This document shows, one piece after another, positions 27,561 to 34,904 of a DNA stretch of 64,000 nt. This DNA is from Cenococcum geophilum 1.58 (taxonomy: Eukaryota; Ascomycota; Dothideomycetes; Gloniales; Gloniaceae), in the NCBI GenBank assembly GCA_001692895.1, contig KV748213.1:1488001-1552000 (forward strand), in the 5' to 3' direction. Numbering within the stretch: position 1 is the stretch's first letter; each line of letters opens with the position of its first letter. The position numbers and the translations under genes were made by a program. The notes under the pieces were generated by a model. It worked only from the letters and a program-made list of their open reading frames with translations. It ran no database searches and was not told the origin of the DNA.

Positions 27561-27836
27561 CCAAACCTAGCCCCTAGCTTTATAACGATATCCTCCCGTA
27601 TAAGCTTATACACGAACTGGCCCCATTAACGTCTCTCCCCAATAAAACTCGCTAGTGCCGGTTTTTACCATCTAATCTTTAACGATGACTATGAGGATTT
27701 TACGCAATGCCCTTTCTGTGGTATATAGAAGTGTAGCTGGAATGATATAGACTACTCTATTGAAGAGTTAATAACAGAGCATAACAACGATTGCTTGTGG
27801 CCAAAACTTAAAGCCGACTTCCATAACTATCTTATG

Positions 27837-28753: not shown

Positions 28754-28756
28754 TCA

Positions 28757-29059
28757 GCTCGCCTCAAACTCCATAATTCGTTCACGGCTTACGGTAGCTT
28801 CTTTCTCCCAAGAATTCTCGCTCTCCAGACAACCCTTCCACCCAACAAGGTATTCGACCCTTTTGCGCAGCACTTACTTCTTAAGCAGTCGCACGCCCGA
28901 ATGGTTCCCTTAATAGGTCGCCTTAAACCCTTCGACAAGCTCTGGGCTTATGTCCTTCCGCTTCTCCTATGTATTGCCCTCGTGCGGAAATCCTTTCCAC
29001 TTCATAAGGTACCAAGTCGTTTTGCCTCGTTTCCACTTGGCAAGCAACGCTTCAGCCTC
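28757..29059 (-). pseudogene. Two tandem chromodomains (C-terminal exon-like part of the recombinase relic)
   Basis: Both copies show the chromodomain core: basic strand, Y-L-x-x-W-K-G, then E-N/G-N-T/S-W-E followed by a helix (VEGFKATY; RIMEFEAS). In chromodomain 1 the Trp of the N-T-W-E motif is TAG, a mutated TGG. In known systems chromodomains bind methylated histone H3 and direct chromoviral integrases to heterochromatin; a similar role here is inference. They lie in the same frame as the DUF3435 part once the inserted element is taken out. Confidence 0.8.
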
Positions 29060-30158
29060 CTATATCCCTCTCTTGGCATTAATTGCAACTGGCTAGCTGT
29101 TACAAGGCGGCTGTATCACCGAGCGTTCGATGTGCCCTGGCGTAGTTATCGGTATGCTTCTGTGAGCATCCTCGACTAAGTCTGCAATAGTTAGTAGACT
29201 TAATATAGAAGAAGGAAGAGCATCTCGGAGCTCCGGATCAACCAAATCCATCAGAATACTGGACAGATATAATGCGGCCAGGATCCGGGCAGTAACACTT
29301 GGCAGTAACTTTACTGCCCGAATCTTTTGATCGGCGGCGGCTTAGCAGGCGGTCAGGGTAGCCAAGGCACTACTCGGGCACCTATTTTACTAGTAAAAGC
29401 CATACAAATGCAATGTTCACCAATACCCCCTTACCCCGGCATGCCCCGCAGGCTGCTACACAGTTAAACGGACGTACACATTACCGCCAAGATTCTCAAC
29501 ACCGCTTAATCGCCACCCAAGCTTTATATAAATACGTGGCAATGGCTCCCTACGCTCTAGACCAAGACCCTTACCCAAAATAGATGCCTCTACCTCTGTT
29601 ACCGCCGCCGCCGCGCCCTAGAAAACCCAGCCAGCCAAATAGAAGGCCTATAAGAAGCTAAGAAACGAGAACGCGATCGCGGAAACGCAGGCAGCTATTT
29701 AACCAATCCCTCCTAAACACTTACTCAAGCTAGAAGCTGGTAAGCACTCTAGCGTTCCAAATGGGTATAGTTATCTTATTACTTTAAAGAAAGAATAGGA
29801 AAGAAATAAGTTGCCGTAGTAGATTCGACGACCTCCCCTCCCTTAGCCCCTCTCCCAATAGTATAGATAATGTAGTATTTTCTAGCACGTCTAAGTTATA
29901 AATTAGTATTGTGGGACCCACCAAATACAATAATATAACCGTGCGGTGGTGTGTCTTGGAGTACTTTGGTGTTAAAGCGCCCGGGATATTTATTTACTAT
30001 CTGCTTGCTCTTCTCCTAAGGTAACCCTCCCTCTTAAGTCCTTGTTTAAATTACCTTTGTAACTTATAACTCTTAAACAAATTACTTTTACACGTTAATT
30101 TGCCTCTGGCTTCTATATTTGCACGGATATAATTGCGATTAAAATCTAAATTTATAAA

Positions 30159-30212
30159 TATAGGGTGTCTCTATTACTGCAGTAGCCACTATAGTAACGG
30201 AGACACCCTATA
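30159..30212. repeat. Quasi-palindrome inside the TIR element
   Basis: TATAGGGTGTCTCTATTACT pairs almost perfectly with GTAACGGAGACACCCTATA. It is the best-conserved member of the window's palindrome family. Confidence 0.75.
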
Positions 30213-30260
30213 TTTTAGTGAGTAGTTAGTCTACTGCAGTCTAAAATCTTAATTGTTAGA

Positions 30261-30307
30261 AATTTGGGGCGTCTCTACTATTACAGTAGCAGAGGCACCC
30301 TAAATTT
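30261..30307. repeat. Second quasi-palindrome inside the TIR element
   Basis: AATTTGGGGCGTCTCTACT pairs with AGTAGCAGAGGCACCCTAAATT. It lies about 50 bp from the first. Confidence 0.7.
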
Positions 30308-33300
30308 AATACTATGCTAAGTATTATGACTTTCCTCTAGTGACCGAGTAACCCTAAATCTTGTTAGGCTAGCTCTAAATCAATACAACCGTAGAATATA
30401 CTATACCACTACGCCGCAAGGACTTTTAGTTGTAATCTTATAAATTTAATTAAAATATAAACCCCTTACGATTAAATATTTCCACATGTAACACCATGCT
30501 AAGGATTACGATGTAGATTACTTAGACATAGCTTTACTGCGATGCAACGGCTCTACGCCGATCGATTGATCTACGGCTCTAAAATCTAGATCTACAACAC
30601 TAAAAACAAGCTCCAAGCCACTGATTTTACACCGGCAGAACGAAACTTGGCAAGAGATTCGGGCAGTAAAGTTACTGCCAAGTGTTACTGCCCGGATCCT
30701 GGCCGGATATAATGGAGGAGTCTCGGGGCCGGACAGAATCCAGTCCTCCTAAGACTCAACAGGAGAAAAGATAGCATCGGTGATCGCGTTAAAGTTCCAA
30801 GGTTCAGAATCACTAAGGAGGTCAACAGTGGTAGCTTCCAATGGAGTTGTCTAGGGAGAACGGCACTCCTCTCCAGTTTAAGGAACTGCTTCGGGAACGT
30901 CGTCTGACAGAGACGAGAGCGAAGTATCCGTACTATAACAGTCCTCGTGATTATCCCAGGCGCTGCCAATTGGGGTGCTGCGACGTAATAAGGAACCGCT
31001 AGACACTGCTGCCATCTTAACGCTATCCGCTAGGCATGGATCAAATTCCACTGCCGAGATATTCATAAATAAGTGGTCAAGAGGATCTTTAGAGCGACTT
31101 TTGGGGGCAGATTTTTAACCACCCGGTACTTTACAGTCCTTATCTTCTAGCTTTCCTTAGAGTCGAGGCCGCTTCTTCTTAGCGGCACCCGACATTTCGG
31201 CTCGTTCATCATCGCCCTCTTCTTGCTAACGTTGGCGCTTCTTCCATACATCTAGCTTGTAAGTGCTATATATGTCTCCAAGGTGGTTCCATAAGTTAGA
31301 TTCCGAATAAAGCACTACAGTGCATAGCAAATGCGGGTATGGAATAGAGTCCTTGCTATCTAGACTCTCAACATACTCTGAGATGCAGTTAGAGATATAT
31401 CTTTGCCAGCTTGTCCAATCATGGAACTGTCTCATCCGTACGGCTGCTAGTAGCCATTTTTTCCTCAGACATCCACTGCAATATCCGGCGCAGGCAACGG
31501 CGTAGCGGAAAGTAACTAGTTCGTACCGGAAAGGCACATTAAGATTATCGATATGATCTTGGCAGTAGGCTTCCTAATCTGTCTCGCTGGTTATCCACCT
31601 ACTGCACCGGAAGCAAAATTCGGCGAAGCCAGATTGCTTCTTATGGTAGTCTTTGGAGCACCGGTATATATGCTTCCACCTCTCTTTCACGACGATGCTG
31701 AGGCGTTCTATTAGCAGAAGTGGCACTAATGAGGGGGGACTATCCTTACTCTTCAATCTCCTGGCCGTAGGTCGGTACTGGATAGCAACCTCCTATGGGC
31801 CGTAACGCTTCCTGGTACGCAACACGGGAATCGTTTGTGCGAAGCGCAATAAGGTCTTAGAGGGCGGAGATACCTTCTGGACTCCGTAGCGGGGCGGCGA
31901 TCGGTAAAGTACGAGCGAGGTGATCGCGCTCGGGAACCATGCGGCGGACAACACGGTCAAAGTAACTGCGGTGCCACTCGCCCTGGTCGTCTACCTCACA
32001 TTGGGTGGTGTATACTCGCCGTTGCGTCCTGCGGTAGTTCGCCAACTCTTCATTAATGAGCTTTTAACGCTGATCATAGACATAGCCGTTAAGCCTTGAG
32101 CTCTTGGCGCCCCTTCTCTATAATAGCAGCCGTAATCTAAGCGGAGAGGTTGTTAATCTGCTCGCCAAGATTGGTAAAGTCCTAGCGCTGTCTTAGCTCA
32201 TCTAGGCACTTTCCTAGAAGCAAGTGCTGGAGATCCGGGTTTCTCCTTATGGACGCAGAGCGGAAGTCTTCTATAAGATCCCGCCGCGGCTCCAGGCCGA
32301 GGAAGACTGCTGCACCGTCCATATTACTTATATTATTTAAGTAGTGGCCGACAAGAGACTTTAAGTTCCTATGCGCGGCGAACTTTATAACCTGCCCTAG
32401 TAAATAGCCGCTGTCTGTTGCTAATTAGCCTGCTATACCATGAACTTATTCAAAGTAAGTACCCCTTACCGTCTACCTTAATAAGCGCTTTACGACGGGT
32501 GGCATAGAGCCCCATCCCTCCTGTAAAACCGGCCCTTTTCGCCTAGTCTAAACACTAGTGGCCCCACACGGTCTCGTTTTTAGTCTTCTCGGTTGGTCTA
32601 TCTGTAGACATCTCCAGAAAAACCAGATCGTCCAACATCCTATCCGCCCAATCTATGATCCGGTACTTTCTGCCCGGCGGCGGTCTAGCAGCGAGGACAT
32701 CCTTAATAGTACTGTAGTCCCTAAACGCGCCAGCCGAGATAATAATAGCGAGTAGAAACAAGAGGCCGTTGGCAGAAAGAGGAGGCGCGGGCTTCAACCT
32801 CTCATACAATGGATGTTTTGGTCTGTGTATAAGCTGTTAGCAACCCACCCGAGCCTTGGAATGAACCACTTTAGACTTACTTTTTTGGCGTGTCTTATAT
32901 TCCTTTAGTAAATTCTCTTTTAAAACTTATCTTAATCTCTAGCTCTCCATCTTTCCATACAACCATACAAACGAGGTCCTGTTGGTAATAGTTAGCACGA
33001 AAATTAGGGTTTCATTTCCACCTTAGACTTGGTATCTCACCTTATACGTCGCCTTGCATATTTCCTGTAACCTTGCAGAAGTATAGCAATGCATCTTCAA
33101 TAGGGCACTTAAATCCACACGGCACCCTTTATAGACGTAGTTATGGTAGTTATACTGCCACAAGAGCTCCTCTATGTCGACGTAGTTCTCTATTATTAAG
33201 AACGTGGGTGCCTTTTCCTCTATTAACAGCGGAATCGTATATCTAAGCACGTCTTTAATATACTTTCTCTCTCGTTAGTAAATGCATCATATAGTAATAC

Positions 33301-33788
33301 TTTAGAGTAGGCTAGCCCGTAGGCACACTTATAGGAGCTACTAAGTTATGGACTTTTGGAGGAATGGTAAAGTTGGTCTTGCGCTGCTATATTAACATAA
33401 GTTTTCGCATCTTATTCCGTACCGTTTTAACAGTTACTCTTCCCGTCTCTTTATCTAGTCTGCCGGGGGTTAAGTATCCGACAGCTTTAGTAATATGCTT
33501 TATGTCTTCTATATTGCGTAAGTCCAATCCTAGATATTTCCTTTTATACCTAAGATGTGTCAGTGCTTGCTATTCTGGACTTAGCTTTATAATATTAGCA
33601 ACGTACGCTTCCCAAAAATCCCATATCGCGTCGTACCGTGGTTAGCTAGTCTTTTTATTTAGTTTTCTATAAACGGGATTGCTATCGATCCCAGACCTAT
33701 CCTCGGAGAGCCCATCCCTCAGGGCTACCTCTATCTGCTCGTCTAGATTTAGTTCTCTCTAATATCCTTTTACCTGTTTAGTGCTCAT

Positions 33789-34420
33789 GGCTTACAGAAC
33801 TCTGTATATGCGGATATAGATATCTAGAGTAGAGACAAGAAAAGAAGGTCTTTCTGGAGAAATGGGAGAGGGATTGGAGAGAGGAGAGAAGGGGGAGGGA
33901 ATATAAGTGAGGAGATATGTAAGGAGATGCGTGAGGAGATGTGTGAGAAGGTGTGTAAGAAGATGGGTGAAAAGATATGTGAGAAGATAGGTAAGACCGT
34001 AAGAAGATGGGTAAGAAGATGGGTGAGAAGATGGGCGAGAAGAGAGGTGAAGACAAGAGGGAACCGGTCATTTATAGAATACGTAGCCCTAGGCAAAACG
34101 CAGAGGACGGCGTAAAACAACCTGAAGGCAGAAAAAGGTCCCACGCATGAAGACAGGCAGACCAGGATAACTGTCTGGGAATGAGCGTACAGTGGAAACA
34201 GATTTGGGACCCCCGGCTGGGAAAGGGGGCCTTTTCGGGCTCCTCGTTAAAAGTTGACGATTTCTGGTGAGATGGGTGAGCAGACCTGAGCAGACTTGAG
34301 CCGAAGTTGAGCCAGGCCTGAGCCGCCTGAGCAAAGGCGGCGCGGGGTCACGTGGGCCAGAGGGTTGGGAGGTGTCGAGATTCCGGTCATGAAACAGCCA
34401 TTTCAATAATATCGGGAACT
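33789..34420 (-). promoter_or_regulatory. Putative upstream region of the recombinase relic
   Basis: Immediately upstream of the recombinase ATG (minus strand) is a 250-bp polypyrimidine tract on the coding strand (CCCATCTTCTCACC-like, 33840-34060). Fungal promoters often have CT-rich tracts near the start. Beyond it is a G+C-rich, barely mutated stretch (34150-34420) containing CACGTGACC. The short frames seen here are low-complexity by-products. Promoter function is inferred from position only. Confidence 0.35.
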
Positions 34421-34436
34421 CGCTACGGTACGCGTT

Positions 34437-34893
34437 ATAGGGGTAATAAGTATATAATTATCTACCACTGCTTAAGATAGTAGGGAACCTACTATATAAT
34501 ACGGTAGGCTGAGATAATTACCCTCTCCTTAGGCCTACACCCCCTAATATAATATATTAAAATATATCTCTATCTCTACAAGCAAGTAAATAGATAAAGA
34601 TATCTATTTAAAGCGAAGTTACGCCTCCTCTAAATAGCAACATTAATATCTATTACAATCAGCCTTTTGGCTTTTCGCTTTCCCACCCTCTACCCTATAA
34701 ATAGATTTGCAGCCTTTTAGGCTTATAGTAGGCCTAAGGGGGGAAATAAGTGTGTAATTATCTACCACTGCTTAAGATAGTAGGGAACCTACTATGCAAT
34801 ACAGTAGGCTAAAATGATTACCCTTTTCTTGGGCCTATACCCTTTAATACAATATATTAGAATATATCTCTATCTCTATAAGCAAGTAAATAA
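34437..34893. repeat. Two direct copies of a ~155-bp repeat
   Basis: Copies at about 34437-34598 and 34742-34893 share AATTATCTACCACTGCTTAAG, AGTAGGGAACCTACTAT and a TATCTCTATCTCTA tail. Each contains a GTAGG/CCTAC hairpin and loosely inverted ends (GGCCTAAGGGG, CCCTTTTCTTGGGCC). They could be MITE or solo-LTR remnants. No target duplication was found. Confidence 0.6.
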
Positions 34894-34904
34894 ATTATAA
34901 GTTA

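Follow-up and report, generated by a model that had tools for sequence, protein, structure and literature searches.

A decayed DUF3435 tyrosine recombinase with C-terminal chromodomains in Cenococcum geophilum and a fungal protein family of the same predicted architecture

Gene layout at the locus

We analyzed a stretch of 64,000 nucleotides from the ascomycete Cenococcum geophilum 1.58 (contig KV748213.1, positions 1,488,001 to 1,552,000; assembly GCA_001692895.1, 177,193,698 bases in 162 contigs), which is referred to here as the window and whose own coordinates are used throughout. Its minus strand carries, from 33788 to 28754, a damaged gene in which a DUF3435 recombinase is followed by a Cys/His finger-like region, a linker, two chromodomains (CD1 and CD2), and a TGA stop codon (Table 1). 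An earlier note made from the sequence had read DUF3435-like blocks, degenerate C2H2 fingers, and two chromodomains on this strand, and both their order and the strand are confirmed by translation, Pfam, and homologs. When the eight translated blocks were searched one by one, all of them matched the same set of 23 proteins, with best identities of 59.5 to 97%, and the arrangement is not due to chance.

As the earlier note had advised, the window was also searched with domain profiles. The tail piece matched Chromo in two stretches (E = 1.5e-19), whereas the broken recombinase pieces reached only 14.9 bits for DUF3435 (E = 0.013), under the cut-off of 25.8, which is not surprising for a broken copy. 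Because DUF3435 falls below the cut-off there, the identity of the recombinase within the window rests on its homologs. Among these homologs, a C2H2-type Pfam match was found once, below threshold, in P0004.

The recombinase, finger, and chromodomain parts had further been placed in one frame, after subtraction of a 1440-bp insertion plus duplication. The six positions behind this claim (32809, 31756, 31537, 31066, 30715, and the TGA at 28756) do share one frame, but the N-terminal block and those at 32424-32093 and 32084-31782 are out of that frame, owing to a frameshift around 32.09 kb and several intron-like gaps. The insert itself (30705-29275) is 1431 bp long and gives 1440 bp only when one copy of its target duplication is included; as this length is divisible by 3, the parts to its left and right stay in one frame.

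Table 1. Features of the recombinase-chromodomain gene in the window, and downstream blocks at related loci
Feature	Position	Strand	Remarks
Upstream region, presumed promoter side	33789..34424	-	Not RIP-like (composite index -0.31, computed over 33789-34427); bounded by multi-copy repeat at ~34425
N-terminal block of the recombinase gene, ATG at 33788, 4 in-frame stops	33345..33788	-	59.5% identity to P0001 residues 1-105
Recombinase block with first catalytic arginine, codon ~33073	33047..33274	-	70% to P0018 132-202; R in 15/15 rows with letters
Recombinase block with HxxR motif; His lost in window copy	32476..32830	-	84% to P0001 178-293; in homologs H 21/21, R 21/22
Recombinase block with nucleophile tyrosine, codon ~32343	32093..32424	-	82% to P0019 48-154; in homologs Y 21/21
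Block between recombinase and fingers, past the frameshift	31782..32084	-	97% to P0001 337-436
Cys/His (degenerate C2H2-like) finger region; first Cys pair just upstream (whole region ~31790-31216)	31216..31735	-	81% to P0001 439-608; conserved Cys/His columns
Low-complexity linker	30730..31216	-	79% to P0001 609-770
Target-site duplication, copy 1, CATTATATC	30706..30714	-	
Inserted Mutator-like element, 58-nt terminal inverted repeats	29275..30705	.	Related copies elsewhere in genome
Target-site duplication, copy 2	29266..29274	-	
C-terminal part with both chromodomains (matched block 29254-28757); TGA 28756-28754	28757..29265	-	Pfam Chromo E = 1.5e-19, 2 stretches; 82% to P0019 360-484, 80% to P0001 784-880
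CD1	28922..29062	-	Pfam match 29059-28922; cage in homologs W/Y-W-F/Y; window codon 29062-29060 (first cage position) is a stop
CD2, cage lost	28763..28891	-	Pfam match 28891-28763
Blocks of 32-39 kb immediately downstream of the chromodomain recombinases of lineage 2	C39:1365034-1404110; C18:2386514-2418455; C43:664137-696894		Copies elsewhere lack the block

The fusion in homologous proteins

The earlier note had proposed a single fused protein, and had allowed that the fusion might prove artefactual if DUF3435 homologs always ended before the chromodomains and if chromodomain homologs stood alone or belonged to a gypsy integrase. Neither pattern was found. The first homolog search, with a query of residues 140-760 (window ~32857-30995) that holds no chromodomain letters, returned five proteins: four with Pfam Chromo, and P0005, whose tail is degenerate but chromo-like and similarly shaped. 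Conversely, the chromodomain tail alone gave 5 matches out of 44 candidates, all of them aligning to the same recombinase-chromodomain family and none to a gypsy integrase; these candidates were of ~556-1769 residues, a range in which short separate chromodomain proteins could not appear.

Two further searches raised the set to 23 proteins. Under the curated cut-offs of hmmscan, DUF3435 was present in 15 of the 23, Chromo in 19 (two stretches in 13), and both domains in 11, proportions that are biased past the first five proteins because the later searches were seeded with that first, nearly all chromodomain-bearing set. DUF3435 (PF11917) stayed below 25.8 bits in eight proteins: P0004, P0013, P0017, and P0019 scored 21.0-24.6, and none was listed for P0020-P0023. 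The four without Chromo above the cut-off are P0005 and P0014, with degenerate tails, and P0012 and P0018, whose models (581 and 585 aa) end before the tail. The Chlorociboria protein P0001 runs unbroken across the site of the window insertion, its residues 609-770 matching before the insert and 784-880 after it. No Pfam match to a retroviral integrase core (rve), which in chromoviruses shares a polyprotein with reverse transcriptase, was obtained in four window pieces (E up to 1) or in the 23 homologs (E up to 0.1). By these comparisons, the fusion of recombinase and chromodomains holds as a real protein family, and an artefact of adjacency to a gypsy integrase remnant is ruled out by the homologs with both domains, the continuous P0001, and the missing integrase core.

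Some of the homologs are already in public databases as "Chromo domain-containing protein." Public records name P0005 and P0015 "carbonic anhydrase," for which neither has a Pfam match, so this is likely a misannotation.

Catalytic and cage residues

The tyrosine-recombinase columns of the homolog alignment (A2) were picked by motif. Besides the arginines, histidine, and tyrosine counted in Table 1, the lysine, which is the least sure of these columns, is present in 17 of 18 rows with letters, and the column of the second His holds H in 13 and Q in 8 of 21. The catalytic columns are conserved across the family. Pfam matches to Phage_integrase among the homologs were all below threshold. Cre tops both lists of structure matches, although weakly (no Foldseek E-value below 0.001, rmsd of 8-10, and low confidence in the catalytic stretch), and the model of P0007 contains a long low-confidence linker at 718-917.

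The cage positions were taken from those of methyl-lysine-reading chromodomains as given in PMC3350952. In CD1 the three columns (reference Y24/W45/Y48) are aromatic in 18 of 18 complete homolog rows, with Trp at position 1 in 17 and Tyr in one; the count omits P0005, P0010, and P0014, each missing one position, and P0012 and P0018, which end earlier. CD1 thus has the residues for methyl-lysine reading, with histone binding itself predicted, and retention of the cage across wide divergence fits a retained reader. A complete cage occurs in none of 17 rows for CD2 (six rows omitted), nine of which read V-W-R. The suggestion that the chromodomains act as readers may therefore hold for CD1, whereas a reading in which both serve this role is rejected. 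Alignments, supported by structure models, show one family with a predicted tyrosine-recombinase core, Cys/His fingers, a long linker, one or more C-terminal chromodomains, and the CD1 cage, of which two lineages occur in this genome.

Decay and surroundings of the window copy

The eight blocks contain 22 in-frame stops (14 TAG and 8 TAA). At the 21 of these sites that homologs cover, the most frequent homolog residue is Q (9), W (6), R (3), or another (3); one site is uncovered. Against P0001, 167 mismatches were counted over 862 columns, 107 of which fit C>T/G>A and 23 the reverse, a bias in the direction of repeat-induced point mutation (RIP). The insert at 30705-29275 has inverted arms of 58 nt that are 97% identical and is flanked on both sides by the 9-bp duplication CATTATATC. 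A 9-bp target duplication is typical of Mutator, and with its terminal inverted repeats the insert classes as a Mutator-like element (MULE). The gene decayed in RIP fashion and also received a Mutator-like insertion; the window copy is a dead single-copy wreck rather than an active element.

The window is RIP-like nearly throughout but less so in a GC-richer stretch at ~27-34.5 kb, and the RIP composite index is 0.49 for the gene and 1.08 for the whole window. The gene, the only copy of its own lineage found in the genome, occupies a 5.8-kb island (34424-28643) between other repeats, and the repeat upstream has 42 long matches, 40 of which end at window 34428-34424. The earlier note had advised a check for element boundaries around intact homologs; for the window copy, ends of its own element were looked for around 34424-28643 and none were found, so this copy may be a recombinase gene of the solo kind. 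Such solo genes with DUF3435 are reported to outnumber captains (PMC12134995).

Several other features lie in these flanks. Within the ~42-match upstream repeat there is a 168-bp direct repeat (86%, spacing 300) at 34428-34595 and 34728-34895. A high-copy repeat extends from ~35115 to at least 39000, with a reverse transcriptase remnant at 37732-37337 (minus strand; RVT_1, E = 1e-8). On the other side, a repeat at 28642-27501, with further genome copies at 74-95%, holds a BIR (inhibitor of apoptosis) match at 27597-27800 (plus strand, E = 1.3e-6), and from 26985 downwards runs a repeat of which the genome has at least 38 more copies, with a Helitron relic (DUF6570 and Helitron_like_N) at 25824-24478 on the minus strand.

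A second lineage in the same genome

The PF11917 profile matched the genome 165 times, and most of the matches listed contain internal stops; at C49:752543-753905, two matches are adjacent, one with 1 stop and the other with none. Of 29 matches in a further genome search, 7 are the window itself and the remaining 22 merged into 19 loci. These other relatives share 24-37% identity with P0019 across the parts that matched. At least 8 of the 19 loci have a Chromo match on the same strand no more than 8 kb downstream, at a distance of 1087-1132 bp in six, where ~0.3% per locus would be expected; the count is a lower bound because 150 of 740 Chromo candidates were scored, and C2:2449525 was counted without a Chromo match although direct reading shows one there.

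In five of these six lineage-2 copies the chromodomain is in frame with the recombinase/finger match, C28 being the exception. Read directly, L045 and L046 have fingers and chromodomain in one frame, separated by 17 and 19 stops; L043 did not show the motif by which the copies were read, but its Pfam Chromo match is in frame. Two lineage-2 copies that were read have a single chromodomain. In both lineages, the motif AIDAE, or the near form PIDAE, stands just before the chromodomain, which suggests that the fusion arose once for both.

Nine lineage-2 copies were found, including the query; the other eight are 88-91% identical, with C11 shortened and C61 split. Downstream sequence is shared at nine loci (C36, C2, C61, C11, the second C39 locus, C31, C44, C28, and C5, the last two in pieces). 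At C39, C18, and C43 it resumes after 39, 32, and 33 kb, with the same ~30 bp on both sides of the block, and the intervening blocks could either be nested insertions or represent cargo carried by a Starship-sized element. Pfam gave no match on the downstream flanks (10 of 12 frames of two flanks, E up to 0.01). We dropped the idea that lineage 2 forms compact 4.7-kb units, as the 3' limit shared by C39 and C36 stems from the block, which C39, C18, and C43 carry, and copies lacking it extend at least ~1 kb past that supposed limit in most of the nine loci. The 5' limit lies near L069 position 1027-1041; for C2, C28, and C44, short sequences from where the 5' end was predicted gave no alignment. 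At this side, the C39, C43, and C18 copies start within ~15 bp of the end of a repeat (L069 1-1041) with at least 37 other copies, and C36 keeps about the last 235 bp of it; the repeat end is possibly a preferred landing site.

Distribution among fungi

The family appears to be spread over four ascomycete classes. By taxonomy look-up, Chlorociboria, Hyaloscypha (P0002 from H. variabilis), Pseudogymnoascus, Calycina (P0017 from C. marina), and Halenospora (P0019 from H. varia) belong to Leotiomycetes, Neonectria to Sordariomycetes, Fonsecaea to Eurotiomycetes, and Cirrosporium to Xylobotryomycetes; the remaining homologs we take to belong to the host classes assigned to them here. In a tree of 20 of the 23 proteins (P0021-P0023 left out), in which P0005 and P0014 are flagged as long branches that meet, the rows given the label Sordariomycetes all lie to the same side of a branch (94/94). 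P0020 from Cirrosporium novae-zelandiae, which bore a Eurotiomycetes label in that tree, groups with Chlorociboria, Calycina, and Halenospora (97/93), a placement that may reflect horizontal transfer or contamination. The gene model of P0020 also continues into a fructosamine kinase.

Proposed function and alternatives

The window gene is probably a decayed DUF3435 tyrosine recombinase, similar in type to Starship captains, with a chromatin reader of its own. By analogy with known families, the recombinase would excise and integrate its own element by the usual tyrosine-recombinase chemistry, and the finger region would bind element or target DNA. CD1 would dock on H3K9me2/3 nucleosomes, as described for the chromodomain of the MAGGY integrase (PMC3350952), and the cage-less CD2 may be a structural or protein-binding unit. 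Docking by CD1 would then bias insertion to heterochromatin, where insertions harm least; this is the weakest step, and in our analysis it could as well fail as hold. Similarly, we are evenly divided on the broader hypothesis of a clade of giant-transposon-type recombinases with a built-in H3K9me reader, whose landing site would be set by chromatin state together with DNA sequence.

A real fusion does not by itself imply target choice. The chromodomains might instead tether the recombinase to HP1-like or other factors, aid dimerisation, or let it act on elements already in heterochromatin, as in excision; the CD2 cage, complete in no row, and the decayed chromodomain tails of two members are in line with such roles, and reported chromodomain functions include dimerisation and DNA or RNA binding (PMC3350952). 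However, a tethering or dimerising role sits poorly with a CD1 cage that is aromatic in every complete row across wide divergence, and we consider this alternative unlikely. It is more improbable still that the gene had been domesticated by the host for a chromatin function and was a transposon no more, as a sole copy of its lineage with no element ends found might suggest, since the window copy shows RIP-type decay and a MULE-like insertion and lineage 2 has multiple copies whose flanks are conserved. Lastly, a DUF3435 gene lying by chance beside a chromovirus integrase remnant, which might have been expected in a cluster of RIP-damaged transposons where remnants of a reverse transcriptase and a Helitron lie nearby, is already refuted for the family by the database proteins with both domains above the cut-off (11/23), the lack of any match to a retroviral integrase core at E up to 0.1 (0/23), the continuous Chlorociboria protein, and the AIDAE motif ahead of the chromodomain in both lineages, and is scarcely credible for the window.

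Comparison with known systems

The earlier note knew of no described family with this architecture, and our literature search agrees in having found no DUF3435-chromodomain fusion described, although a prior mention is possible in core Starship papers outside its coverage; PMC9426589 gives DUF3435 and chromodomain among separate gene groups. The captains of Starships (e.g., Sanctuary and Hephaestus HhpA) resemble the family in their DUF3435 domain, in the R, K, R, and Y columns, in a C-terminal DNA-binding region, and perhaps in a Cre-like fold, to which the family has a weak structure match. The Sanctuary captain is described as a protein of 786 aa, with the tyrosine recombinase at 111-463 and the DNA-binding domain at 711-784, and as having Tyr where our family has the His of HxxR (PMC12506042). 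Unlike in these captains, the polypeptide here continues past this region, with a long linker of low model confidence leading to one or two chromodomains. The window copy is likened to captains by sequence and would at most be a putative captain of a giant element.

Sanctuary (ROU50) and Frontier, the nearest case in the literature, also keep a chromodomain protein with a DUF3435 captain in one element, where it is encoded by a separate gene at the end opposite the captain (PMC12506042, PMC11857905), whereas here, comparing by description rather than sequence, the reader is fused to the recombinase. The authors of the Sanctuary study call heterochromatin targeting by that gene purely speculative (PMC12506042), and for Starships in general, the family of the captain and the direct repeats at the flanks are considered relevant to the choice of landing site (PMC12134995). 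Why Starships land where they do is an open question, and a fused reader makes heterochromatin targeting directly testable on one protein, which, if our hypothesis is true, would combine in one polypeptide what Starships of the Sanctuary type may achieve through two separate genes.

Crypton elements are likewise eukaryotic DNA elements with a tyrosine recombinase. Their DNA-binding family is GCR1_C, which, in contrast, none of the 23 proteins has in its Pfam table. Cryptons and Starship/DUF3435 elements are considered very distantly related (PMC12134995). The chromodomains of HP1, LHP1, CBX, and Chp1 resemble CD1 in sequence, fold, and aromatic cage but differ in that cage position 1 is mostly Trp here and that no chromoshadow domain was identified in our family.

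A parallel in principle exists with the chromovirus integrases of Ty3/gypsy elements such as MAGGY, which also join a DNA-inserting enzyme to a C-terminal chromodomain. Those integrases use DDE chemistry, whereas the enzyme here is a tyrosine recombinase, and no retroviral integrase core matched in its 23 relatives. If the proposed function is correct, the capture of chromodomains for targeting would extend beyond retroelement integrases to tyrosine recombinases, and the family would represent a chromatin-guided site-specific recombinase, possibly of use as a chromatin-addressed tool, that arose as a counterpart of the chromovirus integrase on an unrelated enzyme.

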